From Natrialba asiatica DSM 12278 (GTDB lineage: Archaea > Halobacteriota > Halobacteria > Halobacteriales > Natrialbaceae), in contig NZ_AOIO01000049.1 in assembly GCF_000337555.1 (NCBI RefSeq), positions 21,880 to 85,879 of the forward strand: a stretch of 64,000 nucleotides of DNA, read 5' to 3'. The notes under the pieces were generated by a model. It saw only the letters and a list, made by a program, of their open reading frames with translations. It made no database searches and was not told the DNA's origin. Positions 16,283 to 55,778 of the stretch are shown here, one piece after another. The translations under genes and the position numbers were made by a program. Within the stretch, counting starts at the first letter, position 1. The number at the start of each line of letters is the position of its first letter.

Positions 16283-17152
16283 ATGTCGAACCACTTTTCA
16301 GGGGGCGATCTCAAAACCGCAGCCAAGTTGGTGATATTAGAAGAATATCTAGATGTATACACAACAATTCTTGACACGCACTGGGAATGGGGTGACCTTT
16401 GGTATGTTGATACACACTCAGGGACAGGAAAAACTCATATTGATGAAAAAGGTATTGATATTGATGGATCCGCAATTCGAGCGATTGAAGACTATAGTGG
16501 TTTCTTCGACAGGTTTTATTTATATGAGCTAAACGAAGAACACTTCCATACGCTCCATCAGACACTATCTGAGATATTTGACCTGTCATTTGATGTTAGT
16601 CCGGTTGACACAAATGGTGAAGACTTTCTAGTTGCACGATGCGATGATCCCTATATTCGTATTATGCAAATGGATTCTAATCAGGGGGTGAGTTTCTTAG
16701 CGGACAATGCTAATAGTACTTCCCACTGGTTTACATTCATTGATCCAAAAGGACTGACTGCTAAAAGATCAACTCTAGACACCTTACTAGATCGAGGGAA
16801 CGTAGATATATTATTGAATTATCAAACCACTGGCGTAATGAGGAGTGCAGCGGCAGAACACGCTCACGGTGCAGTAAGACGTACAATGGGTGATGATGAC
16901 TGGCCGGAAGCAGCTTCAAGAGAAGAATATGCTGAGATATATAAACAGAAGCTTGAGGAAAACCGGGATATCCGTCCAGTGTTGACAAAGGGCCTTGAAT
17001 CACCAGATGACCGTCGATGTCGATTTGATTTGGTTTTTGCCTGTACAAATGACGGTGCCCGTAATGCAATGGAATCAATCATGGATCAAGACACCCTCTG
17101 GGAAAAAGCCCAAGACGAATTTGGTCAGTCTGGACTAAGCGATTTCTTTTAG
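16283..17152 (+). CDS. tcmP: three-Cys-motif partner protein TcmP
   Basis: 289 residues. Matches the TcmP family: SNHFSGGDLKTAAKLVILEEYL near the N-terminus (split here: HFSGGDLKTAAKLVILEE), WYVDTHSGTGKT, SHWFTFIDPKGL and NVDILLNYQTTGVMRSAAA. Family members accompany phage Gp37/Gp68-type proteins with a three-Cys motif, one of which is the convergent gene 31 bases downstream. The WYVD-HSGTG region recalls an adenosylmethionine-dependent methyltransferase fold. The chemistry is unknown. AT-richer than neighbours, which suggests separate acquisition. Confidence 0.8.
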   Translation: MSNHFSGGDLKTAAKLVILEEYLDVYTTILDTHWEWGDLWYVDTHSGTGKTHIDEKGIDIDGSAIRAIEDYSGFFDRFYLYELNEEHFHTLHQTLSEIFDLSFDVSPVDTNGEDFLVARCDDPYIRIMQMDSNQGVSFLADNANSTSHWFTFIDPKGLTAKRSTLDTLLDRGNVDILLNYQTTGVMRSAAAEHAHGAVRRTMGDDDWPEAASREEYAEIYKQKLEENRDIRPVLTKGLESPDDRRCRFDLVFACTNDGARNAMESIMDQDTLWEKAQDEFGQSGLSDFF

Positions 17153-19870: not shown

Positions 19871-20777
19871 GTTTCAATCCCGTTGTGGGTTTCTACCGCG
19901 TCGCGACCGAACTGCTCGACGATGCTGGTCGGGCACTATCTGTTTCAATCCCGGTGTGGGTTTCTACCGCACTTCGACTCGACCTTTCCGACCAGGCTCC
20001 TTCGGGCGCGTCGGTGTTTCAATCCCGATCTGGGTTTCTACCGCACTTCGACTCGATGCTGCGGATGGAACCGAACAACAACTCGCTTTGTTTCAATCCC
20101 GATCTGGGTTTCTACCGCACTTCGACTCCCGGTTCTATGACAACTGCACCAATATCACCATGTTTCAATCCCGATCTGGGTTTCTACCGCACTTCGACCT
20201 TGTAATCTGAACCTTCTTCCCACGAGTCCTTGCGTTTCAATCCCGATCTGGGTTTCTACCGCACTTCGACCCGACCGGAGACCCGCCAGAGATAGCGATA
20301 GCGGAGTTTCAATCCCGATCTGGGTTTCTACCGCACTTCGACGATATAGTGGTACGGTTCGAGGGATTCGACCTCATGTTTCAATCCCGATCTGGGTTTC
20401 TACCGCACTTCGACCAATGAGCACGAGCAACCGCCTCGGAGATCTAATGTTTCAATCCCGATCTGGGTTTCTACCGCACTTCGACACCGTGGAAGTTGAA
20501 CTTATCATTGCGCGTCTTATAGTTTCAATCCCGATCTGGGTTTCTACCGCACTTCGACGGGCACAACAACCCGGCAGTCGTCCTGGCGATCGTCGTTTCA
20601 ATCCCGATCTGGGTTTCTACCGCACTTCGACCCTTCGCCGCGGATTTCGGCGAGGGCCTGTTCGATCGTTTCAATCCCGATCTGGGTTTCTACCGCACTT
20701 CGACCGAACCCGTCACCGCCGCCGAGTCCGAACCCGTCTCGTTTCAATCCCGATCTGGGTTTCTACCGCACTTCGAC
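19871..20777 (-). CRISPR. CRISPR array 1, 13 repeats, transcribed leftward
   Basis: Thirteen 37-base repeats start at 19871, 19942, 20016, 20090, 20162, 20234, 20306, 20378, 20449, 20522, 20595, 20668 and 20741; the 12 spacers are 34-37 bases. On the minus strand the repeat begins GTCGAAGTGCGG and ends CGGGATTGAAAC, giving the usual ATTGAAAC 5' tag. The two leftmost repeats are variant (cacaacggg and cacaccggg in place of cagatcggg), marking that side as the old end. The leader is therefore on the right, beside cas2. Confidence 0.97.
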
Positions 20778-20893: not shown

Positions 20894-21166
20894 TTAGATA
20901 ACGTTCGATTGCTCGTCTGGTGGTTCGGTTCCGAGATCTGTCGTCGCCTCTTGGCAGGCTTCGCAGAGCCGATACAGCCGGATTCGATCTCCGTCCGCCG
21001 GCTCGATGTGTCCTTCGAGTTCGTCTTCGAGTTCGACCCGCTCGCTCTTCGAGACGTCGAGTTCGAAGACGCTGTACTGGCGCCACGCCCCGTATCGTTC
21101 CAGCGTCCGGTAGACACGCCGACGATTCGTATCGTCGCTGACGTCGTACGTTACTGCGAGTCTCAT
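20894..21166 (-). CDS. cas2: CRISPR adaptation endonuclease Cas2
   Basis: 90 residues, the normal size. Ferredoxin-like fold: MRLAVTYDVSDDTNRRRVYR (the Asp in YDVSDD is the conserved acidic residue), RYGAWRQYSVFELDVSK and IRLYRLCEAC. Forms the Cas1-Cas2 integrase that inserts spacers at the leader end. Its start overlaps the end of cas1 by four bases. Last gene of the cas operon and adjacent to the leader of array 1. Confidence 0.95.
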   Translation of the reverse strand: MRLAVTYDVSDDTNRRRVYRTLERYGAWRQYSVFELDVSKSERVELEDELEGHIEPADGDRIRLYRLCEACQEATTDLGTEPPDEQSNVI

Positions 21167-22158
21167 CGCGACACCTCCAGTGCGTGGTAGTCGTCGAGTT
21201 CACCTGTGATCGCTTTCCGCAAGAGGATCACTTGCTGTCGGATCGCTTTTCGACGGCTCACGCGGTACTCGAAGTGCGGGTGTGTCAACTCTTCGCCCAT
21301 GTAACCGTCGAACTTGTCCAAGTACGCTTGGAAGCCGTCGTCGGTGAGTCGATTGTCATTTCCGAACTGATCGTGCGTGATCGTCCCACGGTTGATCAGG
21401 CGCGTGACGAACGCGTCACAGAACAGCGGCCGGAACTCCTCTTGGAGGTCGAGCGCGAGCGACGGTCGTCCGTGTCGATCGGCGTGGAGCACGCCCAGGA
21501 AAGGATCGAGGTTGTAGCAGCGTAGCGCGCTCAACACCTCATTCTTCATCATCACGTAGGTCAGCGACAGCAGCGAGTTGATGTGGTCTTCGGGCGGTCG
21601 TTTACTGCGCGTTTCGAACGTCCAATCGTCGACGAGCGTTTCGTCGAGTCGGCCGAAGTAGCGTTCTGCGGCCTCGCCCTCTATCCCGCGAAGGTCGTCC
21701 TTGTTCGACGCAGTCGAAACGCGTTCGCCGAGGTCCTTGAGGACGGTCGTCCCTCGGACGCCCTTCCGCGAGAGGAGCGTCCGCGCGTTTCGGACCTTCG
21801 CTGCGATCATCGCCTTCGCGATTGCCAGCTCGTCGCGGTCGTCAAGCGCATACTGCGCGCGGCGGACTTCGGCGATTGTGTTGCGCTCCGGGACGAAGCT
21901 CCCCCGATACTTCCCGTTCTGCGTGAAGTAGTTGAGCACAATCCCGTGCTCGTTCGCCGTTGCGACGAACGGCGTCGAGAAGTTGACGCCACCGAAGACG
22001 TTGATCGTGTCGAGTTTCTCGACGGGGAACGATCCGAGTTCGCCGTCGTCGCCCTCCACATCGTAGATGACGACTTGGCCGCCGTCGATACGCACCTGCG
22101 AGCCCTGCGTCGTGACGTAGACGACCGAGTCCTCAAACATTCCCTGGCTCTCTTTCAC
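21163..22158 (-). CDS. cas1: CRISPR integrase Cas1
   Basis: 331 residues. N-terminal beta domain (VVYVTTQGSQVRIDGGQVVI) and C-terminal helical domain with likely metal ligands Glu160 in LRGIEGEAAERYF, His225 in VLHADRHGRPSL and Asp237 in LALDLQEEFRP. Acts with Cas2 and Cas4 in spacer acquisition. It overlaps cas4 and cas2 by four bases each. All catalytic positions appear intact, so the adaptation module should be functional. Confidence 0.95.
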   Translation of the reverse strand: MKESQGMFEDSVVYVTTQGSQVRIDGGQVVIYDVEGDDGELGSFPVEKLDTINVFGGVNFSTPFVATANEHGIVLNYFTQNGKYRGSFVPERNTIAEVRRAQYALDDRDELAIAKAMIAAKVRNARTLLSRKGVRGTTVLKDLGERVSTASNKDDLRGIEGEAAERYFGRLDETLVDDWTFETRSKRPPEDHINSLLSLTYVMMKNEVLSALRCYNLDPFLGVLHADRHGRPSLALDLQEEFRPLFCDAFVTRLINRGTITHDQFGNDNRLTDDGFQAYLDKFDGYMGEELTHPHFEYRVSRRKAIRQQVILLRKAITGELDDYHALEVSR

Positions 22159-22778
22159 GCCAGATCACCCGGTGTCGTTCCCTCCCATCCGGTTCCTTTG
22201 GCATCGGACGGCGAGAGGAGCGCCGTCTCACCGGGCATACAGTACGTCCTCGCTGAACACGCCTCGCACTTCGACTGGCTCTGCGTCAGCGACGGGATCG
22301 AATCGACCGACATCGACCGGATACGTTGCAGTATCTTCTGGACGGTCTCGCGGTGGTCCTGCGTGATCCGGACTGAGTGACGCGTGTCGGTCGAGTAGAG
22401 GTAGATGTACCCCACGTTCACGGGTTCGCCGAGGGCCTCTTCGAGCAGCATACAGTAGCCAGCGAGTTGGACTTCGTCGCTCGGGTAGTACGATCCGCTC
22501 TCGGAACGCTTCCGTTCGACCGGGGTCGGTGTCCCGTCCTCGGTGTCGACGAGGTCGATCTTTCCGTGCATCCCGAGGTTGTCGGAGCGGAAGTACCGCT
22601 CTGTCACCCAGTTCCCGCGACGGGATGCGTGTTCATGCTTCGAGCGGCCGTCGACGAGTTCGTAGGGTTCGCTGATTTCATCGTAGTACCGCTGGTAGTA
22701 GTACCGTCGGGGACAGTAGACGAACTCGTTCAACGCGCTCACGTAGACCAGTTCGTCCTTGAAGCTTGAACCCGTCAT
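22155..22778 (-). CDS. cas4: Cas4 RecB-like nuclease
   Basis: 207 residues from the ATG at 22778, two bases before the cas3 stop; longer upstream frames are shadows of cas3. Iron-sulfur cysteines: Cys22 (FVYCPRRYYYQRY) and the C-terminal CEACSARTYC. RecB nuclease motifs: GMHGKIDLVD, PVERKRS and DEVQLAGYC. In related systems Cas4 trims prespacers and checks the PAM before Cas1-Cas2 integration. Canonical size and motifs. Confidence 0.93.
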   Translation of the reverse strand: MTGSSFKDELVYVSALNEFVYCPRRYYYQRYYDEISEPYELVDGRSKHEHASRRGNWVTERYFRSDNLGMHGKIDLVDTEDGTPTPVERKRSESGSYYPSDEVQLAGYCMLLEEALGEPVNVGYIYLYSTDTRHSVRITQDHRETVQKILQRIRSMSVDSIPSLTQSQSKCEACSARTYCMPGETALLSPSDAKGTGWEGTTPGDLA

Positions 22779-22779
22779 C

Positions 22780-24930
22780 TCAGAGATCGATTCCCAAACT
22801 CTCCAAGTCGACGGCATTCTGCGACTCTTGGACCGCACAGTGGAGGTAGAGTGCATCGACTCCAAGCGCGGCACACCACTGTTCGTCACCAACTGTGAGC
22901 GGGTAGAGGAAGAGGAACTTTCCGAGGTTGTACTGATTCTTGACCTGTCGTGGATGTTTTGCGACCGCATAGCAGAGCACATTGAGGTCCTCGCGCATCT
23001 CGTCGCGGAGGTGTTCGATCGATGTGATCCGATCCGCGCCGTCGGGGTCGATGTCGATACCAATTCCGCCGAGTTCGCGCGGCTTCCGTGTCTCATCGTC
23101 GATGCCGTCGTCGGCGCGTAACCAGCCGTAGATCTCGGAGATGGCCTCGAGACGGACGCTCCGTCCGTAACCGTCGTCGTTCGTTTCGATCGTTCCGTCG
23201 TACGTGCAGTAGCCCGTGACGTATGGCGCGAGGTGAGAGACGTCGTCGTCGTGCTCGTCCGGGACAACTTCGTCGAACCCGGTACGTGAGAAGAACTCGA
23301 CGTCGCCATGCCGTAGAAGGTAGAAGAGATCGTACGTCTTTATCGGATCGTCCGCGCCTAGCGTCCGGTCGTAGACGAGTGCCTGGAGCGACCCGCCGCG
23401 GTACCACTGAAGCGTCCGTTCGACGGCATTATCGATGACGTCGGCGTGCGCTTTGACGTCCGACCGGGTGAGTGGTGGATCACCACCGCCGAAGTGTCGG
23501 AGGATGCGCTCCCAGCCCTCCTCACGAATCTCTTCGGCACGTTCCGAATTGGCGTCGTAAGCGCGGCGTTCAACGTGGTGGTAGGCTTCGGCCGCCGAGT
23601 ATCGCCAGTCAAACGAGTCGAACTTCCGGGGATCATGATAGGCATCTTCGAGCGTTTCGACAAGGCGTGCTCGCAGGACCTTCCCGTCGTATTCGATCTC
23701 AGAGAGCGAAGCAGCGACGGTAGACGAGACATAGCAGCGGGCGGGTTGCGGCTTCGATCGCGTTCGGAGGCGGCCGAGACGCTGGACGAAACTCGCCCGG
23801 TCGGGTGCCGAGAACACGAGACGGTCGACCGAGAAGTCGATCCCGACTTCGACGGCAGAGTTGCTCACGAGTACGTCGAAGTCGTTGAGTTTTTCTTTGG
23901 AGTCGCCGCGGTGGAACCCGTCGATGCGAACGATGGTCCGGTCGTCAAGCGCGTTCGAGAGGCGAGTATAGACTTCATCCACCTCGTGAACCCCATCGAG
24001 GATGAAGACGGTCTTTCCGGGCTGCCGGGCGAACGCTTCGGTGTCGTCCCAGTCCTCACCGAGAAGTTTACTCGCGGTGTCGAACGTCGACGCCGAACGG
24101 ACGTCGAGGTTGACGGGTGGCATGACTGCACCCCATCCGTTCGTCGGTGTCTCATCGAAGGGGCGCTCCTCGGTCGTCTCCCGCTCCGATGTCACACGGT
24201 GATACGGCGCGTTCATCGCCTCTTCGAAGCGGTGTTCGAGGCGGGTGGTCGGTGTCGCGCTGAGGAGGACGATCTTCGAGAGTGCACACTGGATCTCCGG
24301 AAGGTCGTACATCTCGTCGAGCAAGAAGAGCAACGTGTTCTGCTCTTTCCTGTCGGCGCGGTGGAACTCGTCGACAACGATGGATTCGAACTCGTTGAGT
24401 TGTCTGACCCGGGATCCGGGATCGCCGGTGCGCCCGTAGATATGTCTCCGCATCATCACGAGGATGTCCGGGTTCGTCAACACGAGTACCTGATTTTCGC
24501 TCTGATACACATGCTTCCGGAGGAGAGCGCGGAGTCGCTCGCCGTTCGTCTTCGCGTTCGGGTACTCGGCCGCGTACCGCGTCCGGAGCGTGTCGGCCGT
24601 GATCGGGAGCACCTCGACGTCTGACCCCAACTCGGGGAATTTCCCGTCGAGTTCGTCCGTGAGCTGATCGTACTGGTCGTGGATGAGCGCGTTCGTCGGG
24701 TAGACCGCGAGCGCGTGCTCTCCGCGTTCGACAACGGGTGCGAGCCACGACATCGTCTTCCCACCGCCGGTGGGGCTGTCGTTCACCGCGAGGAACTCGC
24801 TCGAGGTCTGGAACAACTCTTGAAGGTCCTGTTGGTGAGCGTACGGTTCGAATTCGGGCCCTTCGACCGGGTACTTGGGATCGTCATGCCGTCGTAGTTC
24901 GACGCCCGAGAGGGGGAATGTCGTCCTCAT
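22780..24930 (-). CDS. cas3: Cas3' helicase of type I-D
   Basis: 716 residues. Superfamily 2 helicase with Walker A DSPTGGGKT at 51-59, DEFH box at 187-190, motif III LLSATPT at about 222-228 and a C-terminal helicase lobe (DVLVSNSAVEVGIDF, then QRLGRLRTRS). There is no HD nuclease domain. In type I-D the HD nuclease is in Cas10d, so its absence here supports the subtype. It unwinds target DNA after Cascade binding. Overlaps csc1 by four bases. Confidence 0.92.
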   Translation of the reverse strand: MRTTFPLSGVELRRHDDPKYPVEGPEFEPYAHQQDLQELFQTSSEFLAVNDSPTGGGKTMSWLAPVVERGEHALAVYPTNALIHDQYDQLTDELDGKFPELGSDVEVLPITADTLRTRYAAEYPNAKTNGERLRALLRKHVYQSENQVLVLTNPDILVMMRRHIYGRTGDPGSRVRQLNEFESIVVDEFHRADRKEQNTLLFLLDEMYDLPEIQCALSKIVLLSATPTTRLEHRFEEAMNAPYHRVTSERETTEERPFDETPTNGWGAVMPPVNLDVRSASTFDTASKLLGEDWDDTEAFARQPGKTVFILDGVHEVDEVYTRLSNALDDRTIVRIDGFHRGDSKEKLNDFDVLVSNSAVEVGIDFSVDRLVFSAPDRASFVQRLGRLRTRSKPQPARCYVSSTVAASLSEIEYDGKVLRARLVETLEDAYHDPRKFDSFDWRYSAAEAYHHVERRAYDANSERAEEIREEGWERILRHFGGGDPPLTRSDVKAHADVIDNAVERTLQWYRGGSLQALVYDRTLGADDPIKTYDLFYLLRHGDVEFFSRTGFDEVVPDEHDDDVSHLAPYVTGYCTYDGTIETNDDGYGRSVRLEAISEIYGWLRADDGIDDETRKPRELGGIGIDIDPDGADRITSIEHLRDEMREDLNVLCYAVAKHPRQVKNQYNLGKFLFLYPLTVGDEQWCAALGVDALYLHCAVQESQNAVDLESLGIDL

Positions 24931-25655
24931 CGTTTGGTCTCGAGGAACGTTGCGTCAGCAGGGAGCTGAATGCCGTCGTCGTCCGATCCCAGGGATGTGA
25001 GTTCGACATACGCGCCCTCGTAGGATGCCTGCATTATGAGTGGCGTCGGTCGCATTCGTTTCGTGACGAGGTTCCCAACCGGCGTGAGGGCCGTGTCGTA
25101 CGCTCCGATCGGATGGCCGAGGTCAAACTCACCGTCGCCTTCCGAGACATCGAGAGGCTCGGTCTCGACACGGGCTTTGCCGCGTTTCTTCCCGAGACGG
25201 ATGTAGCCGGGGACACGCAACTCGAGTTCACCCGCGCTGAGGCCGCGTCCAAGCAGGTAGAACGTGAGTTCGTTCCCGTGACCGAGCACGCGACGACGAC
25301 CATACGTCGGAAGGTTCTGCTTCGCGTCCGGATCCTCCTGCGCCGAGTAGTTGATCGTCGCGTAGTCGTCGCTGCTCGTGTTGTACGTCGACGTGATCCG
25401 GTTGGCGAGCCCCGGCCCGGTGCTGTCAGACGGCGCTGCCGGCGTTACGTACAGTTCATCGGCGACTGCGTCGGTGTCGTCGAGGTACGTCGGCTCGAAT
25501 GAGCGGTCAACGTACCGACCGGACGCGAACCCGAGCGCATAGTAGAGCGCTGTGTTCAGGAAGTATGGCTCCGTATCCGCGAGCCGGCCGACCTCACGGC
25601 TCGCGAACCAGATCTCTCCCTGCGTCCGGAGCGTCACTTCGAGTGCTGCCGTCAT
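24927..25655 (-). CDS. csc1: Cas5-type subunit Csc1
   Basis: 242 residues. Starts with the RRM-like strand ALEVTLRTQGEIWFASREVG and has the family landmark EPYFLNTALYYALGF. The middle contains YGRRRVLGHGNELTFYLLGRG. In type I-D this Cas5 protein caps the crRNA 5' tag and helps recognise the PAM with Cas10d. Lies between csc2 (three-base gap) and cas3 (overlap). Slightly longer than some bacterial homologs. Confidence 0.88.
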   Translation of the reverse strand: MTAALEVTLRTQGEIWFASREVGRLADTEPYFLNTALYYALGFASGRYVDRSFEPTYLDDTDAVADELYVTPAAPSDSTGPGLANRITSTYNTSSDDYATINYSAQEDPDAKQNLPTYGRRRVLGHGNELTFYLLGRGLSAGELELRVPGYIRLGKKRGKARVETEPLDVSEGDGEFDLGHPIGAYDTALTPVGNLVTKRMRPTPLIMQASYEGAYVELTSLGSDDDGIQLPADATFLETKR

Positions 25656-25658
25656 GTC

Positions 25659-26645
25659 CTAGGCGGTCTGTTCGAGGAACGCGTGCGAGGCGTCCAATTG
25701 CGTTTCGAGGACATCGGCGAGCGAGTCGCCGGTCGCGGCTTCGAGCAGGTCGTCGACGGTCTCGTCCGGGACGCGTTTGAGGTCGAGCCCGCCGCGCTCG
25801 GCGTCGACCCGGTCGTCGAAAGCGGACTGGAGGAGTTCGCCGACGAGTTGCGGGTCGTGCGCTGCTGCCGTGATGACGTCCTGAATCGAGTCGACAGTCG
25901 TCTCGTCGCTGTCACGGAGTCGGGTGACGACGTTCCTGGTCAACTCGAGGTTCGCTGGCCCTTCTTCGCTCCCCGTGTAGACGCCGAGGACGTGGTTCTT
26001 GACGCGACCGAGACGTGATGTCGCGGCGCCGTAGCGTTTGTTCTTCGCTGCGATCCCGAGAACGAACGCGACCTCCTCAGGCGTTGCATCCCGAAGCGTA
26101 ATGACCGACGGGAACAGCGTCCCAGGCTCGAAGAAATCGGGTTCGCGGATCGTCGCTTCGGCGGTCTTCGCGTAGTCATCACCGGGCGCGTTCTGGAACT
26201 TCTCGTCGATCGTCGCGGTTGCGTCCCGGAGCGTGTAGGCGGTATCGTACATCACACGGGACGTGATCGAGAGCTGCTGGTCGGCATCGTCACTCGCGGC
26301 GCTCCCGTAGAGGATGCACTCGACGCAGTCTTGGCACATGCCGTTGACCTGCATCGTACACTCGGTCCCGAGAAGGTTCCGCTGGAGGGACTTTCCGAAG
26401 CGTCGGTCGCTCCCCGTCTGCTTGCGCATAAACATCAGGCCCGGCGAGTACGTCTCACGATCGTCACCCGATCCGACCGCGACGTTCGCGAGGTCGGCGC
26501 TCTGCCCGTCGGTCGTGAAGATCGCATGGCTCTCTAGTTCGCGCAGAACGAGGATGTTCGTGAAGTTGTTCTGTGGGGCGATCGTCATCTCGTCTCGGGA
26601 AACGGTGCCGCGCTCTAGTTCGGGGTATGTGTCGTAGTCAAACAT
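25659..26645 (-). CDS. csc2: Cas7-type backbone subunit Csc2
   Basis: 328 residues. Family signature at about 112-126: a Cys cluster followed by ILYGSA (NGMCQDCVECILYGSA), plus TLFPSVITLRDATPEEVAFVLG and NKRYGAATSRLGRVKNHVLG. Several copies polymerise along the crRNA to form the type I-D Cascade backbone. Two bases separate it from the small-subunit gene upstream. Size is normal for Csc2. Confidence 0.92.
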   Translation of the reverse strand: MFDYDTYPELERGTVSRDEMTIAPQNNFTNILVLRELESHAIFTTDGQSADLANVAVGSGDDRETYSPGLMFMRKQTGSDRRFGKSLQRNLLGTECTMQVNGMCQDCVECILYGSAASDDADQQLSITSRVMYDTAYTLRDATATIDEKFQNAPGDDYAKTAEATIREPDFFEPGTLFPSVITLRDATPEEVAFVLGIAAKNKRYGAATSRLGRVKNHVLGVYTGSEEGPANLELTRNVVTRLRDSDETTVDSIQDVITAAAHDPQLVGELLQSAFDDRVDAERGGLDLKRVPDETVDDLLEAATGDSLADVLETQLDASHAFLEQTA

Positions 26646-26647
26646 CG

Positions 26648-27085
26648 TTAGTTGGTCTCTGTCGTGTTGTCGGTTGTCTCGCGCTGCAGTTGGATCGTCG
26701 CCGCGTAGAACCCGTCCGCGAGGTTGTTTGCCCGCCGCTTCAACAGCGACGGCTTCCCCTCACAGCGGTCGACGAGGAGTCGCTGCGCGAATGCGTTCGC
26801 GTATCGCTCGATACGCTCATTCAGATGGTCGCCGCTCCGACTCTTCTCGGCGGGTACCGGCCACACCTGTTCGCTTCGCTGGTGGAGTTTTTCAAGTCGG
26901 CCAGCGACGAGAAGTGCCGCCTCGTCGACGCTCAGCCGAAACTCGTTCGAGTCCTTCACGGCCTTTACTGATTCTCGAAACACTCGCTCGATGGCGTACG
27001 GCTTGTCGTTCCCGTACGCGGGCCGTATTGCGTCATAGGCGAGTTCCGCGAGTTCGGTCACATCGTCCTTGGTTGTGTTCGTCAT
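26648..27085 (-). CDS. cas11d: stand-alone small subunit Cas11d (candidate)
   Basis: 145 residues, all-helical: TELAELAYDAIRPAYGNDKP, then AIERVFRESVKAVKDSNEF, LSVDEAALLVAGRLEKLHQR, LNERIERYANAFAQRLL and LLKRRANNLADGFYAATIQL. This layout matches the C-terminal domain of bacterial Cas10d, which in studied type I-D systems is also made separately by internal translation and serves as small subunit Cas11d. Here it is its own gene, with its ATG overlapping the cas10d stop (ATGA), as if the gene had been split at the domain border. Assignment is by position and fold pattern. Confidence 0.72.
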   Translation of the reverse strand: MTNTTKDDVTELAELAYDAIRPAYGNDKPYAIERVFRESVKAVKDSNEFRLSVDEAALLVAGRLEKLHQRSEQVWPVPAEKSRSGDHLNERIERYANAFAQRLLVDRCEGKPSLLKRRANNLADGFYAATIQLQRETTDNTTETN

Positions 27086-29583
27086 TCGTGAATCACTGTC
27101 GTCGTATCCGCATCGTTCGTCGGATTTCCATACCGGTCGAGGTAGTCCGCTTCCTCGAGCAGATACCGTGCGGCCCCGCCGTCATCGGAATCCTGCACGG
27201 CCCGTTTCAACAGGTACGACCCAGGTAGCGGCTTATTCCGGACAATCCGGAGATACTTCGCGAACCGGGCGTCGTCGCGGGCAAGTGCGTAGCCGAGTTC
27301 GATCAGGGCGGCGGCTGATCCGAGTCGGTTTCGAAGCTTCGAAAGCGGAATCTCCCGGCCGTAAAACCCGTTGACGGTCGTGAATCCGGCGTCGAGCTTC
27401 ATCATCTCCGGGAAGTCGCGTCCCCGGACCTCCGGAATCGGGGACTGTGAGACGTACGCTCGCAGCCCCATTGTCGACGCGACCGCGAGACCGACGAAGA
27501 CGCCGAAGAACTGGAATTCCGTCTCGTTGTCCTGTGGCTTGTAGAACGAGAGCGTCTGCGTCCCGAACCCGGCGTCGGGGTCGAATCCATTCTGGAGCTG
27601 CTCGATCATTGAGAGTCCGCCCATGTCCTCGGCTCGCGTCGCCTCGCGGAGGACGGTCGATACCGACTCGGAGATCGGCGTCTCGTCCGCTCGGTCATGG
27701 TCTTCTCCAGTAGTCGCGACGTCGAACATCGCAGAGCTGAGACGACCGACCCGGGTCATCGCCTCCCCCGTGAACCGCGCGAAAATTTCGTCGGTGTAGA
27801 GGTCCCACATCGTCGGCGTGTAGAAGTAGTCCGGCACCAGATGGACGAAGAGGCGACCGGCGTCGCGCTGACTCGATCCGGTCTCGCGGAGGGAGAACTC
27901 GATCTGACACGGCGTACAGACGAGGAGTTTCTCTGGCTGGCCGGCGTCGGCAGGGATCCGGTTCGAGTACCCTGCTTGGAGCGTCGTAAGCGACTTCGGC
28001 GCTTTCATGTCGCTCTTTCGGGTACTCGTCGTCCCGCGGTTGCAGAATGTACACGTTTTCCCCCGTCGAGTCGCGTGGTGCTCTTCGAACGGGTCGGAGA
28101 GTTCGTTCATCTCCGCGGTCGGTGGGGACGCCTGACCACCGACGCGGAGGGCGTCACCGATGTATGCCCGGAGTTCGGTCTCGAATTGGCCCGTGTGTGC
28201 GCCCATGACAATGTCGTCCCACTCCTCGTCGAGCGCGTCGAGGTTCGTAATGAGGAGTTTCGCGACCTCGCCCGGAACGTCCTGCCAGCCCTCACGACGC
28301 GCTCGATCAGCGATGTGCTGACCGACTGCGTACGCGTAGTCCCACTTCCCACCAGCTGTGAGGTCGACGTCCTCGTCGTCGCGGATCTCCCGGAGGCCGT
28401 CGAGGATGTTCTCGTTGATTTCGAAGAGCCGACACGTGACGGTGAGGGCATCGTCGTCTGTCAGGCCGGCATTGACGAGCGGATCGACGAACGCGCGTTT
28501 GAACGTGTACACCAGTCGCGCGTAACCAGGGGCGACTCGTGTCGTCGTGTCGATGTCGATCGGGAGACGCTCGTTCAGCGTCTCCATCGTCTCCGCCATG
28601 CTGTCAGTCGGTCCCGAGTCGGGGTCCGCGTCTTGCTTGGCCTTCAACGCGGTCGCGTAGAGGAGGTTCCGCGCGCCAGCGTAGAAGAAGTCTTGGTCGT
28701 TGATCGTGTAGAACCCTTGTGACTGCGTCGAAAGGTTGTCCGCGAGCGCGCTGTGACTGTCGTATGCGTCATGGGATTCGGGGATATCTGCCCGAAGCCG
28801 GTCGTACACGTTGCTAATCAGGTCCTTGTCGACTGTCGGTTCCGAAGAGCTCCCATCGGTTAGGTAGACGCAGCCATCTTGGTAGATGAGGAGTCGCTCG
28901 TATCCCAGGCGTTCCTCAAGGACGTGGCTGACCGCGCCGTTGAGGAGGTTGGTGAACACGCCCTTCACGTCGTCGAGCGTGTGGTGCCGGAGCTCGAGGT
29001 CGGTTCCGGGGTATGCGACTTCCAAACCCGTCTGATTCCGGTCGACCGTCGCCGCTTCCGGTGTCTCGCAGGACGCGAACGCGTCGGCGAGACGAACGTA
29101 GGGCCGGAGGTGGTCGTACGTCCGAGTGGCGTGCTCCGGATTCGAGTTCCACGTGTTCGAGTGATCGACCGCGCATGCGTGGAAGGTCTCGATCCGAAGG
29201 TCGGGTGCAAATGCGTCGACACCGAGCACATCGACAAGGTCTGCCACTTCGTCCGTGTCGATGTCGTACTCCTTGTCCATCTTCTGCTCGTCACGGAGCT
29301 TGTGGAGATCGTGAATGGCGAACAGCGCGACAACCTTTCGAAGTTCGTCGTCGCTCAACTCGTAGGCACCGAACGACGGTGCAATCTCGTTCAGGTGCAC
29401 GATGGCGAACACGCCGTTCCGGACATGGTTGAGCATTGACTGGTCGGTCAGGCCGTATTCGACGCTCTTCGCCGTCTCGAAGGACCACCCGACATCAAGG
29501 AGGTGGGGGTCGACATTGGCGAGGTACTCCGCCAGGACGGGATGAAGGTCCTGATCGCCCCAGATAGATGTGCTATCGGGCAC
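27082..29583 (-). CDS. cas10d: large subunit Cas10d (Csc3) with HD nuclease
   Basis: 833 residues, GTG start. HD-type nuclease domain at the N-terminus: FAIHDLHKLRDEQ with His91-Asp92 and a later His141 (AVDHSNTW). A zinc finger has Cys511, Cys514, Cys556 and Cys559 (CTFCNRG, then CTPCQ). No GGDD cyclase motif is present, as expected for type I-D. The usual C-terminal small-subunit domain appears to be missing and is encoded by the next gene. Cas10d recognises the PAM and cuts target DNA with Cas3'. It has its own upstream gap, separate from cas6. Confidence 0.92.
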   Translation of the reverse strand: MPDSTSIWGDQDLHPVLAEYLANVDPHLLDVGWSFETAKSVEYGLTDQSMLNHVRNGVFAIVHLNEIAPSFGAYELSDDELRKVVALFAIHDLHKLRDEQKMDKEYDIDTDEVADLVDVLGVDAFAPDLRIETFHACAVDHSNTWNSNPEHATRTYDHLRPYVRLADAFASCETPEAATVDRNQTGLEVAYPGTDLELRHHTLDDVKGVFTNLLNGAVSHVLEERLGYERLLIYQDGCVYLTDGSSSEPTVDKDLISNVYDRLRADIPESHDAYDSHSALADNLSTQSQGFYTINDQDFFYAGARNLLYATALKAKQDADPDSGPTDSMAETMETLNERLPIDIDTTTRVAPGYARLVYTFKRAFVDPLVNAGLTDDDALTVTCRLFEINENILDGLREIRDDEDVDLTAGGKWDYAYAVGQHIADRARREGWQDVPGEVAKLLITNLDALDEEWDDIVMGAHTGQFETELRAYIGDALRVGGQASPPTAEMNELSDPFEEHHATRRGKTCTFCNRGTTSTRKSDMKAPKSLTTLQAGYSNRIPADAGQPEKLLVCTPCQIEFSLRETGSSQRDAGRLFVHLVPDYFYTPTMWDLYTDEIFARFTGEAMTRVGRLSSAMFDVATTGEDHDRADETPISESVSTVLREATRAEDMGGLSMIEQLQNGFDPDAGFGTQTLSFYKPQDNETEFQFFGVFVGLAVASTMGLRAYVSQSPIPEVRGRDFPEMMKLDAGFTTVNGFYGREIPLSKLRNRLGSAAALIELGYALARDDARFAKYLRIVRNKPLPGSYLLKRAVQDSDDGGAARYLLEEADYLDRYGNPTNDADTTTVIHE

Positions 29584-29646
29584 TGGTATTCCCCCTGTCA
29601 GACCATGACCGACCCCCGGTTTGAGCGATCACGCCCCCGTAAGAAG

Positions 29647-29660
29647 CATCGTATATCTCG
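29647..29660 (-). promoter_or_regulatory. candidate TATA box for the cas10d-cas2 operon
   Basis: On the minus strand, gagatatacgatg lies 65-75 bases upstream of the cas10d GTG. It is the best TATA-like site before this operon. A G-rich SD-like ggggg lies just before the start codon. If used, interference and adaptation genes are transcribed independently of cas6. Confidence 0.4.
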
Positions 29661-29834
29661 CCCGTTGATCGACCAGCCGGTCGAAACCGTCGGTCTACTG
29701 GATGTCGATACGGCTGGGTTCCATTTCTGACACGGAAACCCACGCTCAAACGCTCTACGAGTCCGGCGTTATCTGATCCTCTTAATTTAGTCCTAGCTAT
29801 CATGCGCCTCGGCTTGGTGTACACACCGAAGACA

Positions 29835-29868
29835 CTAAAATTTCTAGTGGCCCTTGTATGGGTACCGC
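29835..29868 (+). promoter_or_regulatory. candidate creT promoter with CreA target site
   Basis: A TATA-like ctaaaattt (29835-29843) points to a start near 29865. The site cttgtatgggtaccgc (29853-29868) overlaps the predicted start. It matches the spacer-like sequence that follows the degenerate repeat at 29908-29944 at positions 1-5, 7-11 and 14-16. Positions 6 and 12, which Cascade leaves unpaired, are two of the three mismatches. The three bases 5' of the site are GCC. Confidence 0.55.
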
Positions 29869-29869
29869 T

Positions 29870-29941
29870 ATGCAGAACCTTCGAGTACTTCGGGGAACGT
29901 ACTCCTTGATGCGACCCCTGAAGAAATCCAAACGGAATTGA
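29870..29941 (+). CDS. candidate CreT toxin mini-ORF
   Basis: A 23-codon ORF starting four bases after the predicted transcription start: MQNLRVLRGTYSLMRPLKKS, ending KRN. The product would be basic, unlike the acidic proteins around it. It ends inside the degenerate CRISPR repeat. CreT toxins may act as RNA or as tiny proteins, so translation is not required for the model. Purely a candidate. Confidence 0.35.
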   Translation: MQNLRVLRGTYSLMRPLKKSKRN

Positions 29942-29970
29942 AACCTTGTCTGGGTCGCGCACGCACCCTC
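29908..29970 (+). ncRNA. candidate CreA: degenerate CRISPR repeat plus spacer-like guide
   Basis: 29908-29944 resembles the array repeat: it ends cggaattgaaac versus cgggattgaaac and contains aagaaatcca versus tagaaaccca. With one gap, 19 of the 25 3'-proximal positions agree. The following bases, cttgtctgggtcgcgc, form a guide with a partial match 92 bases upstream. A hairpin gagtac/gtactc (29883-29904) precedes the repeat. It lies between cas6 and the large-subunit gene, where CreTA was found in a haloarchaeal type I-B system. Confidence 0.6.
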
Positions 29971-30819
29971 TCATTCTTTCACCTCCACAGAAACCGTCCC
30001 ACACCCTCTGGAGACGAACGCACCGACGCCGGCGTACTCGCTGAAGAGCGCGAGCGCCGTCACTGCGGTCCGGATGGCTTCGCTCGCGCCCTTGAACTTG
30101 TACGTGCAGTCAGCGGTGAACCCCTGGCGGAGAATCGGGCCGCCATCCTCGCCGCGGTTGACGAGGACGGTGTGCGTCTCGTAGGTGTCTGCGTCGGGTT
30201 TTTCGATGAGGTTTGTCCCGAAGTCCTCGCGGGTCATCGCGATTTTGAACTCGTCCGCCCGTTCGTCTGGGATCGTCGTGTTCCACTTGTGTAATATCGA
30301 GGCGAATACGTGTTGCCTCGCGGGAAACATGTTGGTTATGTTGCTACTCTCCTTGACGCACGTCGGCGTCTCGAAGCGGACCTTGATCTCGAAGGTGTTG
30401 TGTTTCCGGGCGGCGATCTCTGAGGCTTTGGTAAGGAGGTCTTCGTGGGTTGTGTTCGTGCTCGCGAAGTCGCGCACGCGGAAGTTGCCATCCGCGAGTT
30501 CGAGTGTGTCGTCGCTGAAGACGAACGCGTCAGCAAGTGCTTGGAAGACCTCTTGGTCGCGGGGATCGGCGACGCCCAACTTGAGAGTGTACGTCTCGTC
30601 GCGGATCACGCGTTTGTGGTGGTCGCGATGGCTCTCGTCGAACGTCCCGAGGAGGCCGCTGTTCGTCAGACTCCCGATTGAGGAATCATGGACGCGCGTG
30701 CTCACATCCTCGTCGACACCGTTGAGTGCCGAGAGGACCGCGCCGTAGATCTGGTAACCATTCGCGGTCGGCACCGGGAACGAGCCCTCTGGCTCAACCG
30801 TTAACTCGATTCGACGCAT
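29971..30819 (-). CDS. cas6: CRISPR RNA endonuclease Cas6
   Basis: 282 residues. Two ferredoxin-like folds; begins RRIELTVEPEGSFPVPTANG and ends with the Gly-rich loop GVGAFVSRGCGTVSVEV typical of Cas6. RVHDSSIGSLTNSGLLG and FEIKVRFETPTCVKESSN are other landmarks. It cuts repeat RNA to leave the ATTGAAAC tag. First gene of the leftward cas cluster, divergent from csa3. The 387-base gap to cas10d suggests independent control. Confidence 0.92.
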   Translation of the reverse strand: MRRIELTVEPEGSFPVPTANGYQIYGAVLSALNGVDEDVSTRVHDSSIGSLTNSGLLGTFDESHRDHHKRVIRDETYTLKLGVADPRDQEVFQALADAFVFSDDTLELADGNFRVRDFASTNTTHEDLLTKASEIAARKHNTFEIKVRFETPTCVKESSNITNMFPARQHVFASILHKWNTTIPDERADEFKIAMTREDFGTNLIEKPDADTYETHTVLVNRGEDGGPILRQGFTADCTYKFKGASEAIRTAVTALALFSEYAGVGAFVSRGCGTVSVEVKE

Positions 30820-30860: not shown

Positions 30861-30993
30861 CACATCTGGATCCGTCACCACCTTGAATCTTTTTGCGATT
30901 CCGAAAACGTATTCAGTCATTCGGGATCGTAACCGGACGATTACGCAATTTCGAAGCCAAACCGTTTAATCGAACATGACTGCAATTGGATGT

Positions 30994-31626
30994 ATGCGTA
31001 CGTACGTCTCCACGATCGGGCACTACAGCCCGCGGGTGATGCGCCCGATACTCGATAACGGCCTCGATGCCGACGACGTTATCGTTCTCCTTCGACCGCG
31101 CGGCGACACGAGCGATAGGGCGAAGAGCGCGATCCAGGATGTTAACCAGACCGTCAACGAACTCGGTCCCGGAGCTGATATTGTTGTCGAGGAGGTAAGC
31201 TACGAGGCGTTCGAAGCCGCTGTGTTAGAATGCGTCGACGTCCTTGAAGCCGCCGAGGGGACGGTAGTACTCAACTTCGACGGGGGTCCGCGGGAGATCT
31301 TTCTCCCGCTGACCGTCGCCGCGATCGCCCGGCCGAACGTCGTCGACCTCGCACTCCAGTTCAGAGATATCGACGAAAAGATCGAAGAGATCGGCCTGCC
31401 GAACCTGATGGGGCGCCCGTCCGACGCGACTCTCGACACGCTCCAATATCTCGTCTCCATCGACGAAAGTACGACCCTTCCTGGAATCTCCGAGGAGACC
31501 GGGAAATCGAGAAGTACTGTCGGTCGACACCTCGACGCGCTCGAATCTGATGGCGCCGTCGAGACGTGGATGGAGGGCAAAACCCGTCACGTCGCACCGA
31601 CACTTGCCGGCCGACTCCACACGTGA
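30994..31626 (+). CDS. csa3: CARF-wHTH CRISPR regulator Csa3
   Basis: 210 residues from the ATG at 30994 (MRTYVSTIGHYSPRVMRPIL). CARF domain at about 1-135 with the ligand-loop motif VVLNFDGGPREIFLPLT, followed by a wHTH (DTLQYLVSIDESTTLPGISE, then GKSRSTVGRHLDALESDGAV). Csa3 proteins sense cyclic oligonucleotides or other ligands and control cas genes or arrays. It is divergent from cas6 and ends 12 bases before the leader of array 2, so it could act on both. Confidence 0.9.
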   Translation: MRTYVSTIGHYSPRVMRPILDNGLDADDVIVLLRPRGDTSDRAKSAIQDVNQTVNELGPGADIVVEEVSYEAFEAAVLECVDVLEAAEGTVVLNFDGGPREIFLPLTVAAIARPNVVDLALQFRDIDEKIEEIGLPNLMGRPSDATLDTLQYLVSIDESTTLPGISEETGKSRSTVGRHLDALESDGAVETWMEGKTRHVAPTLAGRLHT

Positions 31627-31743: not shown

Positions 31744-33819
31744 GTCGCGATGCGGTAGAAACCCAGGACGGGATTGAAACCTCTCTGATCCGGATTCCTG
31801 GTAAGCGATCGAGATGTCGCGATGCGGTAGAAACCCAGGACGGGATTGAAACGATTCGACCGTCGGCTCGTTATGATTCGCGAACGGATGTCGCGATGCG
31901 GTAGAAACCCAGGACGGGATTGAAACAACCGGAACCGGCGGACTGCCGTCACTGCGACCGGAAGTCGCGATGCGGTAGAAACCCAGGACGGGATTGAAAC
32001 GAGGATATGATGCTCGGAATCGACTGCACGAAATGCGTCGCGATGCGGTAGAAACCCAGGACGGGATTGAAACAGACGGCAACTCGAGCGCGAACTCGGA
32101 GACCATTTCGTCGCGATGCGGTAGAAACCCAGGACGGGATTGAAACAGAAACGGCTTCGTTGCATTTCTGGATCGATTCGGTCGCGATGCGGTAGAAACC
32201 CAGGACGGGATTGAAACAATCAAATGTCCGAATTGTGGGAACGTAGCTGTCTGGTCGCGATGCGGTAGAAACCCAGGACGGGATTGAAACCTTGTCCCCG
32301 CTGTGCAGGTCACCATGGAGGGCATGTGTCGCGATGCGGTAGAAACCCAGGACGGGATTGAAACACTGCGAAGGGGAAGCAGTCGGTGATCGGGCTCGAG
32401 GTCGCGATGCGGTAGAAACCCAGGACGGGATTGAAACATAAGTACCGAGAGACGCCACTCCCCGATAACCTCGGTCGCGATGCGGTAGAAACCCAGGACG
32501 GGATTGAAACAAGAGCAGGGCCGAAGGGACCGATCTAGAAGTCCGTCGCGATGCGGTAGAAACCCAGGACGGGATTGAAACACGCTTTTACGTCGCTTAG
32601 CTCAGGCTGAATGTCTCGTCGCGATGCGGTAGAAACCCAGGACGGGATTGAAACAGAACTGGGGAGCCACTTTCGCCCCGCCCGCGCCGATGTCGCGATG
32701 CGGTAGAAACCCAGGACGGGATTGAAACAGCACCGAGAGCACGGTTTCATCGAGTTGTCGAACCGTCGCGATGCGGTAGAAACCCAGGACGGGATTGAAA
32801 CAGAACGTGTTGCCCGACGCATCAATGTCGTCAGTCAGGTCGCGATGCGGTAGAAACCCAGGACGGGATTGAAACACTACGTGACGAGCGTGATCGACGA
32901 CAAGCGCGCCGGTCGCGATGCGGTAGAAACCCAGGACGGGATTGAAACCGGGCGCGATCTACGAACTGACTGAGGACCAGTTTGGTCGCGATGCGGTAGA
33001 AACCCAGGACGGGATTGAAACATCAATAAGAACTGGAACCGGTTCATGTCGTGGGTCGCGATGCGGTAGAAACCCAGGACGGGATTGAAACACCACCGAG
33101 TCAATCAACGACGTGCCGCCGGCCACTGGTCGCGATGCGGTAGAAACCCAGGACGGGATTGAAACCGTCGTCGTCTGTTTCTCCGGTCTGTCCCTCGTCG
33201 TGTCGCGATGCGGTAGAAACCCAGGACGGGATTGAAACTTCCGTGTTAAGCGATACCTAAACTTAGTTCCTCCGGTCGCGATGCGGTAGAAACCCAGGAC
33301 GGGATTGAAACCTTGGAGTTGTTTGCTTTCTAGTGATTATCATAATGTCGCGATGCGGTAGAAACCCAGGACGGGATTGAAACTTTGAGGGCCTGTTTCG
33401 GGCACTTGACCTTAATGTGGTCGCGATGCGGTAGAAACCCAGGACGGGATTGAAACAGTCAGTCGGGATGGACACGATAGAAAGCAACGTCGCGATGCGG
33501 TAGAAACCCAGGACGGGATTGAAACAATACCTCGGCAAGTACCTGAGCGCGATATACGGCGGGTCGCGATGCGGTAGAAACCCAGGACGGGATTGAAACT
33601 GCGCCACCGCCAGATTCGCTGTTAGACTCGTCTTGTCGCGACGCGGTAGAAACCCACACCGGGATTGAAACAATCAGTAGGTGGCAATCCAATCACTCCC
33701 ACACTGGGGAGTCGCGACGCGGTAGAAACCCACACCGGGATTGAAACGAGACTATCGCCCGATCGGAAACGGCGTCCGTCCTGTCGCGATGCGGTAGAAA
33801 CCCACACTGGGATTGAAAC
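31744..33819 (+). CRISPR. CRISPR array 2, 29 repeats, transcribed rightward
   Basis: Twenty-nine 37-base repeats, from 31744 to 33783 at 71-76-base intervals, with 28 spacers of about 32-39 bases. The repeat begins GTCGCGATGCGG and ends CGGGATTGAAAC. The last three repeats (33635, 33711, 33783) carry cacaccggg or cacactggg in place of aggacggg. The first two of those three also have GTCGCGACGCGG. These are the same variants as the distal repeats of array 1. This fixes the old end on the right and the leader on the left. Spacers are all different from each other. Confidence 0.97.
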
Positions 33820-33903: not shown

Positions 33904-34980
33904 CTAGGGCTCGATCTCTCCATCCAATACCTGCTGGACAATTTCGCGGAGCTCGTAGGCCGGCCCGTTTTGTACGTCACGTTCGCAGATGAGATCTCGT
34001 GTTTTAAAATCACTTAACCAGTCTCGAATCGCCCGTTGACTACGTTCCTCGTCAATCCGCATATCTGAACAGTAACTATCTGTAATCGGACCGCTGGTTT
34101 CCGGGCCGATCTTCCCGATCACTTCTAGACAAATGCGTTGTGAGCGTGAGATTGCCGAAAGGTGTGATCGGATCACGTCCGACTGAGACATTGGGGAGCC
34201 TTTATCGAGCAGATCGGTTGTCACCTCGCCGGCCCCTTCTGATCGAGCATGGAGGACTGTGTTTTTGAGAATCGAAATCGCACGCCTTGCGTCGTTTCTC
34301 GAGCGCTCGGCGATAATTTGCAAGTGTTCGCGTTCGACGACACCACGTTCGAGTCCGACATTTGCTCGCGCCTGAAGGATCTTGACCAGCGTACTTTCGT
34401 CGTAGGAGCGGAACGGAATCGGTGTGAGGGCGGTCAGTCGCGAGTCCAGACGATCCTCGGCGTCGGCGAACAACTGGTGACTCTTGGTGACGATCGGGAG
34501 TAGGGCTACCCCCGTCATTTCATAGAGTTCTTTGAGCACATCCTTTTCGCCGATCTGGTCGGCCTCGTCAAGTACGACGATCAGGTGCCCGTCAATCGCG
34601 TCGAGTATCTGCCGGCGCAATTGGTCGGTCGCAGCGGAGGGGCGCGTCTGGGCTGGCCCCTCGCCGAGCGTCTCGAGAAGTTCCTGATAGACGTCGCGTC
34701 GGGACTTTCCATTGTAGCAATCGATGTATGCCGTTTCGATCGGCTCACCGCTAGTCCCGTTTTCAGTGACAGTAGTCGCCGGAATCTCATTGAGAAGTAC
34801 GTTTGCGGCACACGTCTTGCCTGATCCCGGTGGTCCATAGATGAACGCACCGCTGGTCTGGTGGCCGTTCGTCACGGGTTCAAAAATACTCGATAGTGTG
34901 TTGATCTCGCTGTTTCGATGGACGATCAACTCCCGTGGTGGTTGTTTTTTCGGTTCGAGAGCGTCCTGGTCCACGATCAT
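33904..34980 (-). CDS. orc1/cdc6: second Orc1/Cdc6-type AAA+ initiator
   Basis: 358 residues from the ATG at 34980 (MIVDQDALEP). A GTG at 35001 is possible, but a TATA-like gattatatg at 35003-35013 fits a leaderless start at 34980. Walker A GPPGSGKT, Walker B LIVVLDEADQI, sensor region TPIPFRSYDESTLVKILQAR and a C-terminal winged helix (LEVIGKIGPETSGPITDSY). I see no iteron set like that at 5487-7179 around it, so it may be a non-origin paralog or control another origin. Confidence 0.85.
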   Translation of the reverse strand: MIVDQDALEPKKQPPRELIVHRNSEINTLSSIFEPVTNGHQTSGAFIYGPPGSGKTCAANVLLNEIPATTVTENGTSGEPIETAYIDCYNGKSRRDVYQELLETLGEGPAQTRPSAATDQLRRQILDAIDGHLIVVLDEADQIGEKDVLKELYEMTGVALLPIVTKSHQLFADAEDRLDSRLTALTPIPFRSYDESTLVKILQARANVGLERGVVEREHLQIIAERSRNDARRAISILKNTVLHARSEGAGEVTTDLLDKGSPMSQSDVIRSHLSAISRSQRICLEVIGKIGPETSGPITDSYCSDMRIDEERSQRAIRDWLSDFKTRDLICERDVQNGPAYELREIVQQVLDGEIEP

Positions 34981-35121
34981 ACCTATCTGGATGTACGACA
35001 CTCATATAATCGGAGGGGTATCCATTCCGATGTTTTCGGTCCTGTGACCATCGATCATACGCATTGTATGGCCTTTCTTTGCAATGGATACTCTTATCAC
35101 CCAATATACCAAATCACTTGT

Positions 35122-54600: not shown

Positions 54601-54975
54601 CAGGTCAGACGGAATGCCATGGTCTACGTCCACATCGATGGCGGGCTTGGTGACAAGGATATCTCGTGGGTCAATTCGAACCCTATTACGCAGGACGGAC
54701 AAACCCGATGGGGTGAGGTTGAACATGGCGAAAGCGACGGGAAGTCGGTTCTTGTGACTGTGACTGACGAGCGTGGCCAAGCGAGCATCGAAATCGAACG
54801 TGATGCCGGTCCGATCGCCCGGATGGTTCACTGGATGTCCTACTCGATTCCCGGTTCGGACCTGCTCACATCGATTTTCGCTCCATTGTATCAATTCATT
54901 CTCACTGTTGCAGCTGAGCCCGTAACAACCGTGTCGCCTGTTTCACCGACTGTTCCAGTCGCTGCTACCGTTTGA
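51694..54975 (+). CDS. large exported surface/spike-like protein
   Basis: 1093 residues. An N-terminal membrane segment (RRQLGVLVLATLLATSMPLA) serves as signal or anchor. A jelly-roll-like region follows (EDFEDGNYDGWEAFHSDSAV, FEISGTYYAEDGSSSPPIRF). Next is a carboxypeptidase-regulatory-like domain (GHSISGQVIDGDGNPVDNAT), a coiled coil near 620-660 and further beta domains. A hydrophobic C-terminus (SIFAPLYQFILTVAAEPVTT) could be an anchor. Very acidic and Asn/Thr-rich. The context suggests a virion or vesicle spike or S-layer-type protein; not proven. Confidence 0.65.
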   Translation: MTRNNADTESNWFPLPTRRQLGVLVLATLLATSMPLAYTSGLFGSDQHSSTVLAQDSTQDGGNVSAYEDFEDGNYDGWEAFHSDSAVNIVEESFYGNHSVQIDDDNDQAQLFWTDGQSFDLGNTFEISGTYYAEDGSSSPPIRFGINDPDADDVVNSENQALVNIEQEHNAIYLATHYDDAVPADEDKYITDAMLNQWNNFRLQIDSGKARLKVWESGTSEPSEWMATRDYDEFEGQFYANSGNDVGERRLLLDEIDAGGHSISGQVIDGDGNPVDNATVETIGVDFDGLKEELNDTSADLEAEADELLDQVDDVEPDSWNEDYDLTSHFQDANGEYLLAHQQNDWGLGQTLAIDSNVDAPRLSMDSDSSVYLSVWDATNGSGILGNQVDNSFPGSVVKQPIVVEQIGAGGETIQSTTHDPEVIAETTGGRVTGTNKHYGVDIDLSVGFYRAYPEGSPEKGYTFVVGDAQELIGMFQDQLRTEAGELTERSEELSETVKGGLFERRTTTTTENGTFNLRVQQGVERATVQTYRADGQQLTEITGPSFGDLRDIADGAYNGSFVVASPQRFDVPNENVTIQAYRTDELPFRNIEDYDSLQEWLQDQRMKERLDEISEEYDERLSELDRARLEQVYSSHRLLVETIPSAEDNYLSESSFDEIQDGEDLSNDELETETELMQSALIGAGDLDNIDDLEPPEIPEDPIDVTDGTLNAEYPIPGNLNLDSITPEIHYSDGTSEQISDEYWSVDESMTPLGTDTLVIEDYPLGDGVSAFDVRIMGASENGLLDDRISGVNPDFAGELVDIDAIDFSTLAPSADERVYVSVDAASGQDTIVGVDVFGPNGQQLGSEVSNESDQASFRTNGEGAHHVRLTLESTSGHQFTVSESIRALEQSRSDPATVRIGKSTLGPHAVVGERLESARVDSLENPSIDAIAEADDAPGEIHIKPGDNLRGTSNTLDVNLLHGSDEEQVRRNAMVYVHIDGGLGDKDISWVNSNPITQDGQTRWGEVEHGESDGKSVLVTVTDERGQASIEIERDAGPIARMVHWMSYSIPGSDLLTSIFAPLYQFILTVAAEPVTTVSPVSPTVPVAATV

Positions 54976-54984
54976 GGTATCATT

Positions 54985-55776: not shown

Positions 55777-55778
55777 CC

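Follow-up and report, generated by a model that had tools for sequence, protein, structure and literature searches.

A separate cas11d gene in the type I-D CRISPR-Cas operon of Natrialba asiatica and repeated switching between split and fused cas10d loci

The window analysed here is a 64,000-nt stretch of Natrialba asiatica DSM 12278 DNA (contig NZ_AOIO01000049.1, positions 21,880 to 85,879), and all coordinates refer to it unless stated otherwise. Its minus strand carries a full type I-D CRISPR-Cas operon. The cas6 gene (29971-30819; PDLC02043 Cas6d, 450 bits) is followed by cas10d/csc3 (27082-29583), which starts with GTG and encodes an 833-residue protein devoid of the Cas11 domain, and by cas11d (26648-27085), a separate gene for a small subunit of 145 residues. 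Downstream lie csc2 (cas7d; 25659-26645; TIGR03157), csc1 (cas5d; 24927-25655; TIGR03159), the cas3' helicase gene (22780-24930; TIGR03158), cas4 (22155-22778; TIGR00372), whose start was set at the ATG 1 nt past the cas3' stop upon comparison of the start candidates, cas1 (21163-22158; TIGR00287 over its cut-off, TIGR04093 as best match) and cas2 (20894-21166; TIGR01573). The csa3 gene for a CARF regulator (30976-31626, plus strand; TIGR01884) diverges from the operon, and each flank holds a CRISPR array of 37-nt repeats, 13 of them at 19871-20777 and 29 at 31744-33819. The type I-D character of the operon is indicated by a Cas10d/Csc3 protein (TIGR03174, E 1.3e-139) with an N-terminal HD (HDLHK at residue 91) and an inactive palm lacking the GGDD motif, by Csc2 and Csc1 matches well over cut-off, and by a separate Cas3' that scores 303 bits against a cut-off of 69.

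The first repeat of the 19871-20777 array is unlike the others in that it ends with GTCGCGAC, as found in the 31744-33819 array, rather than with CTTCGAC; hence both arrays seem to share an older form of the repeat. Near the CRISPR locus, a 289-residue protein (16283-17152, plus strand) matches the PADLOC candidate defence family PDC-M41A (E 1.7e-14). The 31744-33819 array is adjoined by the gene for an Orc1/Cdc6-type AAA protein (33904-35001, minus strand), possibly the initiator of a megaplasmid; an orc1/cdc6 gene likewise lies near the plasmid-borne I-D locus of Halorussus pelagicus. A series of large genes at 51694-58285 (plus strand) includes those for a 1093-residue protein with a weak match to a carbohydrate-binding domain and for a 796-residue subtilase.

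The original prediction had described the 145-residue gene as helical, starting in the cas10d stop codon and preceding csc2, had placed the end of Cas10d where its C-terminal domain would begin, and had concluded that Cas11d is encoded separately. Each of these points was borne out, beginning with the profile comparison with the Csc3 C-terminus that it had proposed. On the 946 positions of the Csc3 model TIGR03174, the 833-residue protein covers 2-781 and the 145-residue protein 814-946 (6.4e-22, 77.5 bits against a cut-off of 60); the latter interval is identical to that occupied by the Synechocystis Cas11d protein, whose extent was defined experimentally by cryo-EM. The PADLOC Cas10_Id model (PDLC02023) is divided in the same way, at 22-814 and 822-961. 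An AlphaFold2 model of the small protein, built from 24 aligned sequences (pLDDT 91.8), is mostly helical. When this model was compared to the PDB with Foldseek, the top rank went to the Cas11d chain 7sba_J (TM 0.69) and ranks 2-6 to type I-D Cas10d chains. VIA-align superposed it on residues 828-975 of 7sba_I with a Z score of 17.0 (rmsd 3.1 over 138), and on residues 718-844 of the Saccharolobus islandicus Cas10d with a Z score of 8.9, the next unrelated chain scoring 6.4. In the 7SBA entry, Cas11d corresponds to Cas10d residues 830-975 (146 residues). The Cas10d model from the window aligned to 7sba_I 2-829 and 6thh_C 2-725, and stops where the Cas11 domain of 7SBA starts. The end of the 833-residue protein, inspected for a complete Cas11-like domain, contains none: it reaches position 781 of TIGR03174 and residue 829 of 7SBA_I, and cas11d lies in another frame. 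The locus was consequently not assigned to the arrangement in which cas11d is found inside cas10d. Thus, the 145-residue product is the Cas11d small subunit, encoded as a gene of its own, and Cas10d is made without that domain.

The whole genome contained no Csc3-like sequence beyond these two TIGR03174 matches and no full-length Cas10d. Alignment of the archaeal Cas11d profile to the single Synechocystis Cas11d sequence with hhalign was weak (probability 34%, E 4e-4), and phmmer searches of the PDB sequences with Cas10d and Cas11d yielded no relative, so that the link to the PDB rests on the fold and on the Csc3 profile. No Pfam model matched either protein. NCBI calls both genes of the Halococcus dombrowskii pair Cas10d/Csc3, and PADLOC scores both as Cas10_Id; the small subunit is therefore concealed in annotation by these shared labels.

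At the junction of the two genes, the cas11d ATG (27085-27083) and the cas10d TGA (27084-27082, minus strand) share the sequence ATGA at 27082-27085, making a 4-nt overlap; the csc2 gene starts 2 nt past the cas11d stop. Four of the seven operon junctions measured are 4-nt overlaps of the ATGA type, indicating that the cas10d-cas11d overlap follows the usual style of the operon. In Haloferax volcanii, termination-reinitiation has been measured at overlapping genes, and short intergenic distances are 8-fold enriched for genes encoding subunits of the same complex (PMC6728339, PMC10666635). Being co-directed and overlapping by -4 nt at ATGA, cas10d and cas11d are candidates for a translationally coupled termination-reinitiation pair. 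The ATGA is the probable site at which ribosomes that end cas10d would re-initiate on cas11d. In the Synechocystis complex, the minor filament consists of the Cas10d C-terminus and two free Cas11d copies (PMC9123187). Since the window encodes no fused copy, free Cas11d would have to fill every position of the filament, including that of the Cas10d C-terminus in Synechocystis, and probably about three copies would be present. In the R-loop, the displaced DNA strand would presumably be held by these copies, just as Cas11d holds it in the known complex. Cas11d is far less acidic than Cas10d (22 K+R against 24 D+E, compared to 76 against 142) and has near-invariant residues K66, R70 and K116; its composition and these residues are compatible with a role in holding the displaced strand or target DNA.

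To place this arrangement, we turn to its distribution. By our count, 25 of 391 haloarchaeal genomes contained a Csc3 match, comprising 11 split pairs, 10 fused genes, 2 divergent fused genes and 2 remnants; a separate cas11d is found in about half of the haloarchaeal I-D systems detected. In a non-redundant set of 62 proteins, 29 loci are split and 33 fused, the gene pair of the window recurring in 28 other loci. Split haloarchaeal loci include those of Haloferax sulfurifontis, three Halarchaeum species, Halorhabdus amylolytica, a Halorientalis MAG and Halorutilus salinus. Outside the haloarchaea, the split is seen in ANME-2, Methanoperedens, Methanocrinis and many Methanothrix/Methanosaeta; within the Methanothrix/Methanoperedens lineage, each of the 11 members sampled has a separate cas11d. 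Fused genes are found in Methanomicrobia, in one haloarchaeal clade (Halorubrum lacusprofundi, Natribaculum luteum and others) and in the cyanobacterial and Chloroflexota plasmid loci examined, the cyanobacterial sample consisting of plasmid records. Two long loci (L091 and L092) were scored as fused by their length, the Cas11 part going undetected by BLAST. A search for Cas11d in viral contigs produced 26 pattern matches, none of which was confirmed.

A small frame change would join both frames of the window's pair, and fused relatives exist at 52-65% identity (two fused loci, L012 and L055, are 60-65% identical to the split Cas10d of the window). This could mean that the gene is in truth a fused one, like that of Halorubrum lacusprofundi, with the split reflecting a frameshift, a sequencing error or a dying gene. 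However, this ATGA junction is also seen in other, independent genomes. One example is the complete Halococcus dombrowskii plasmid NZ_CP095009, which carries the split pair with a Cas11d 97% identical to that of the window. A separate cas11d is present in 29 loci, and comparison with six relatives gave dN/dS values of 0.03-0.19 for cas11d, similar to those of cas10d (0.09-0.19). The cas11d sequence is a real gene under purifying selection, and an artefact, rejected on account of the junctions being conserved across many genomes, is extremely unlikely.

The two genes also evolve together. Pairwise identities of cas11d and cas10d over 54 loci were strongly correlated (Mantel r 0.94, none of 2000 permutations reaching as high), and the nearest relatives of the cas10d and cas11d parts agree for L051, L055 and the window. 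Both results, and the fact that exactly this domain is missing from Cas10d, speak against the 145-residue protein being a duplicate, or a Cas11 acquired from elsewhere, rather than the counterpart of the Cas10d C-terminus. It is well established that type I-E and type III systems have separate small subunits of their own, and Halarchaeum rubridurum has a cas11d that alone is divergent; still, we hold such an origin to be most improbable for the gene in the window. In the Halarchaeum case, the H. nitratireducens and H. rubridurum loci are mostly 91-97% identical in cas10d and 85-96% in csc2 while most of cas11d is 61-74% identical (L054 6001-6438, L056 6001-6441), a pattern that would fit an exchange of cas11d by itself.

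A tree was built from the Cas10d core without its Cas11 part (62 rows, unrooted). Split and fused rows were found intermingled, requiring 6 changes of arrangement, each forced by starred branches; 5 changes were obtained upon removal of long-branched rows. Topologies with all split rows in one clade (p-AU 1.3e-7) or all haloarchaeal fused rows in one clade (p-AU 1.4e-7) were rejected, although the groupings were chosen with the tree already in view, so that the p-values flatter the case. Hence, the arrangement switched at least 5-6 times. This number of switches, together with the wide occurrence of split loci, shows that the split in the window is not a one-off fission. As the tree is unrooted, the counts say nothing on whether fission or fusion came first; the original prediction is upheld as regards the separate gene but not as regards "gene fission", the tree not giving the order of the two states. 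Loci from MAGs labelled Mesotoga, Eremiobacterota, Omnitrophota and Ruminiclostridium fell within archaeal clades of this tree, a placement suspected to result from binning errors and given no weight here.

One reading of the tree takes the separate cas11d as the ancestral state, in parallel to type III, where the separate cas11 gene is established knowledge, and the fused cas10d with its internal start as derived by several fusions. By our reading of the topology, parsimony leans to a split ancestor of the clade formed by Methanothrix, ANME and the haloarchaea, and a highly divergent split locus (L038) lies outside this clade. Against this, all Methanomicrobia loci and the cyanobacterial loci examined are fused, a fused ancestor costs just about one step more, and on an unrooted tree, change counts do not tell gain from loss. 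We regard an ancestral split as less likely than not. It concerns only the evolutionary history and does not conflict with the mechanism proposed above.

How split and fused loci relate is suggested by the sequence around the cas11d start. Among the fused proteins, 30 of 31 have a Met (ATG) at the position where Cas11d begins. At the split junctions, the cas10d stop overlaps the start codon as ATGA or GTGA in 18 of 29 loci and lies within the Shine-Dalgarno sequence (AGGTGA) in 7 of 29, which places it inside the cas11d start signal itself in 25 of 29; in two others the stop is found 8 nt into cas11d, and the last two are different. Since cas11d starts at the position of the internal Met of its fused relatives, the internal start has not been replaced, contrary to what had been originally proposed; rather, a stop is superimposed on it. 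Split and fused loci have one common start site and appear to differ by a stop or a frame change beside it.

Fused loci of methanogens show a Shine-Dalgarno sequence directly before the internal Met, extending up to GGAGGTGAT, with duplex energies (dG) of -5.9 to -16.2 kcal/mol that are mostly within the lowest few percent among windows of the same gene. This sequence evidence suggests that the I-D systems of archaea, too, make Cas11d by internal initiation. Strong Shine-Dalgarno sites were sought in the haloarchaeal loci as well and were not found in general, consistent with the sparing use that haloarchaea make of such sequences. Four fused loci with a methanogen-type cas10d (L079, L082, L085 and L086) have a near-perfect in-gene Shine-Dalgarno sequence preceding the conserved internal Met.

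The cas11d start signal, be it ATGA or the Shine-Dalgarno sequence GGTGAT, holds a TGA in another frame. Because the TGA is inside the signal, a small frame change upstream could make or remove the split and leave the start untouched, and a net frame change within the short, poorly conserved linker may suffice to expose or hide the stop. We consider it an even call whether I-D systems change back and forth, repeatedly and reversibly, from a single gene that has an internal start to a pair of genes, which would make the fused Cas11 domain dispensable and let free Cas11d alone build the minor filament. In six Methanothrix loci (L067, L069, L070, L071, L074 and L076), the cas10d TGA lies inside the cas11d Shine-Dalgarno sequence and cas11d follows in-frame 6 nt on; reading through the stop would yield a fused protein in these loci.

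At most haloarchaeal junctions the two frames are one step apart, as would be needed for a programmed -1 frameshift to give some Cas10d-Cas11d fusion beside the free subunit. No slippery sequence common to the junctions compared was seen by eye, however, and the gap between the genes ranges from -65 to +40 nt with all three frames represented among the loci, a variation that a programmed shift would not tolerate. Such a frameshift is very improbable. Our confidence is high, on the other hand, in the scheme as a whole, in which Cas11d would be made separately by reinitiation at a start site shared with the fused loci, its free copies would fill the minor filament, and the arrangement switches repeatedly between split and fused.

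In type I-E (Cse2) and type III (Csm2/Cmr5) systems, the small subunit is the product of its own operon gene, as it is here; unlike those proteins, the small subunit of the window is the C-terminal domain of Cas10d itself turned out as a separate gene. The I-D Cascade of Synechocystis PCC 6803 (pSYSA; PDB 7SBA/7SBB) shares with the window cas3', cas10d, csc2, csc1 and cas6, and its 146-residue Cas11d agrees with that of the window in fold and in the positions covered on the Csc3 model; there, in contrast, Cas11d arises from an in-frame start inside cas10d and one copy remains fused. The Cas10d of S. islandicus LAL14/1 (PDB 6THH, 6YES) has the same domain order, with the Cas10d and Cas11d models aligning to 2-725 and 718-844 respectively, but is a fused protein of 847 residues, and its 14-kDa small subunit has been attributed to internal translation (PMC7689449). 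Another haloarchaeal small subunit, that of the type I-B Cas8b/Cas11b system of H. volcanii, is translated from a Met close to the C-terminal portion of the large-subunit sequence (PMC11899642); this system belongs to another subtype, and its internal start lies in-frame within a fused gene, no cas11 gene of its own being present.

In a 2011 survey, I-D operons were found to lack the small subunit (PMC3150331), the structural paper on S. islandicus describes I-D systems as being without a cas11 gene (PMC7689449), and according to a review, expression of Cas11d from an internal start seems widely conserved over all I-D lineages (PMC10212523). The passages retrieved from the 2025 classification paper (PMC12669027) do not mention a separate I-D cas11. 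No earlier description of such a gene was found in the literature searched, and we rate the subunit and the I-D system as known and the separate-gene arrangement, its frequency and the repeated switching as new, priority being uncertain. The split and fused loci amount to a natural experiment on why large and small subunits share one gene, and the split systems predict that the fused Cas11 domain is unneeded. They also offer natural two-gene versions ready for use in hosts in which internal starts do not work; according to PMC10212523, Tan et al. had to supply Cas11 separately.

The interval between cas6 and cas10d (29584-29970, minus strand) contains a degenerate CRISPR repeat, GTTTCAATTCCGTTTGGATTTCTTCAGGGGTCGCA, which follows a handle-like GCGCGAC and comes with an 11-nt pseudo-spacer. 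The pseudo-spacer is repeated some 80-95 nt downstream, with 10 of 11 positions matching in the window. Similar elements precede cas10d in L053 and L056. In Halarchaeum acidiphilum the recurrence is perfect (11/11, ACCCATACAAG); in H. rubridurum the pseudo-spacer has another sequence, again recurring at 11 of 11 positions and at the same offset (ACCAGTATAGG). The pseudo-spacer and its downstream copy have thus changed in step, which suggests a crRNA-like regulatory guide of the CreA/CreR type, here within a type I-D operon. Guides of this type are known from type I-B systems.
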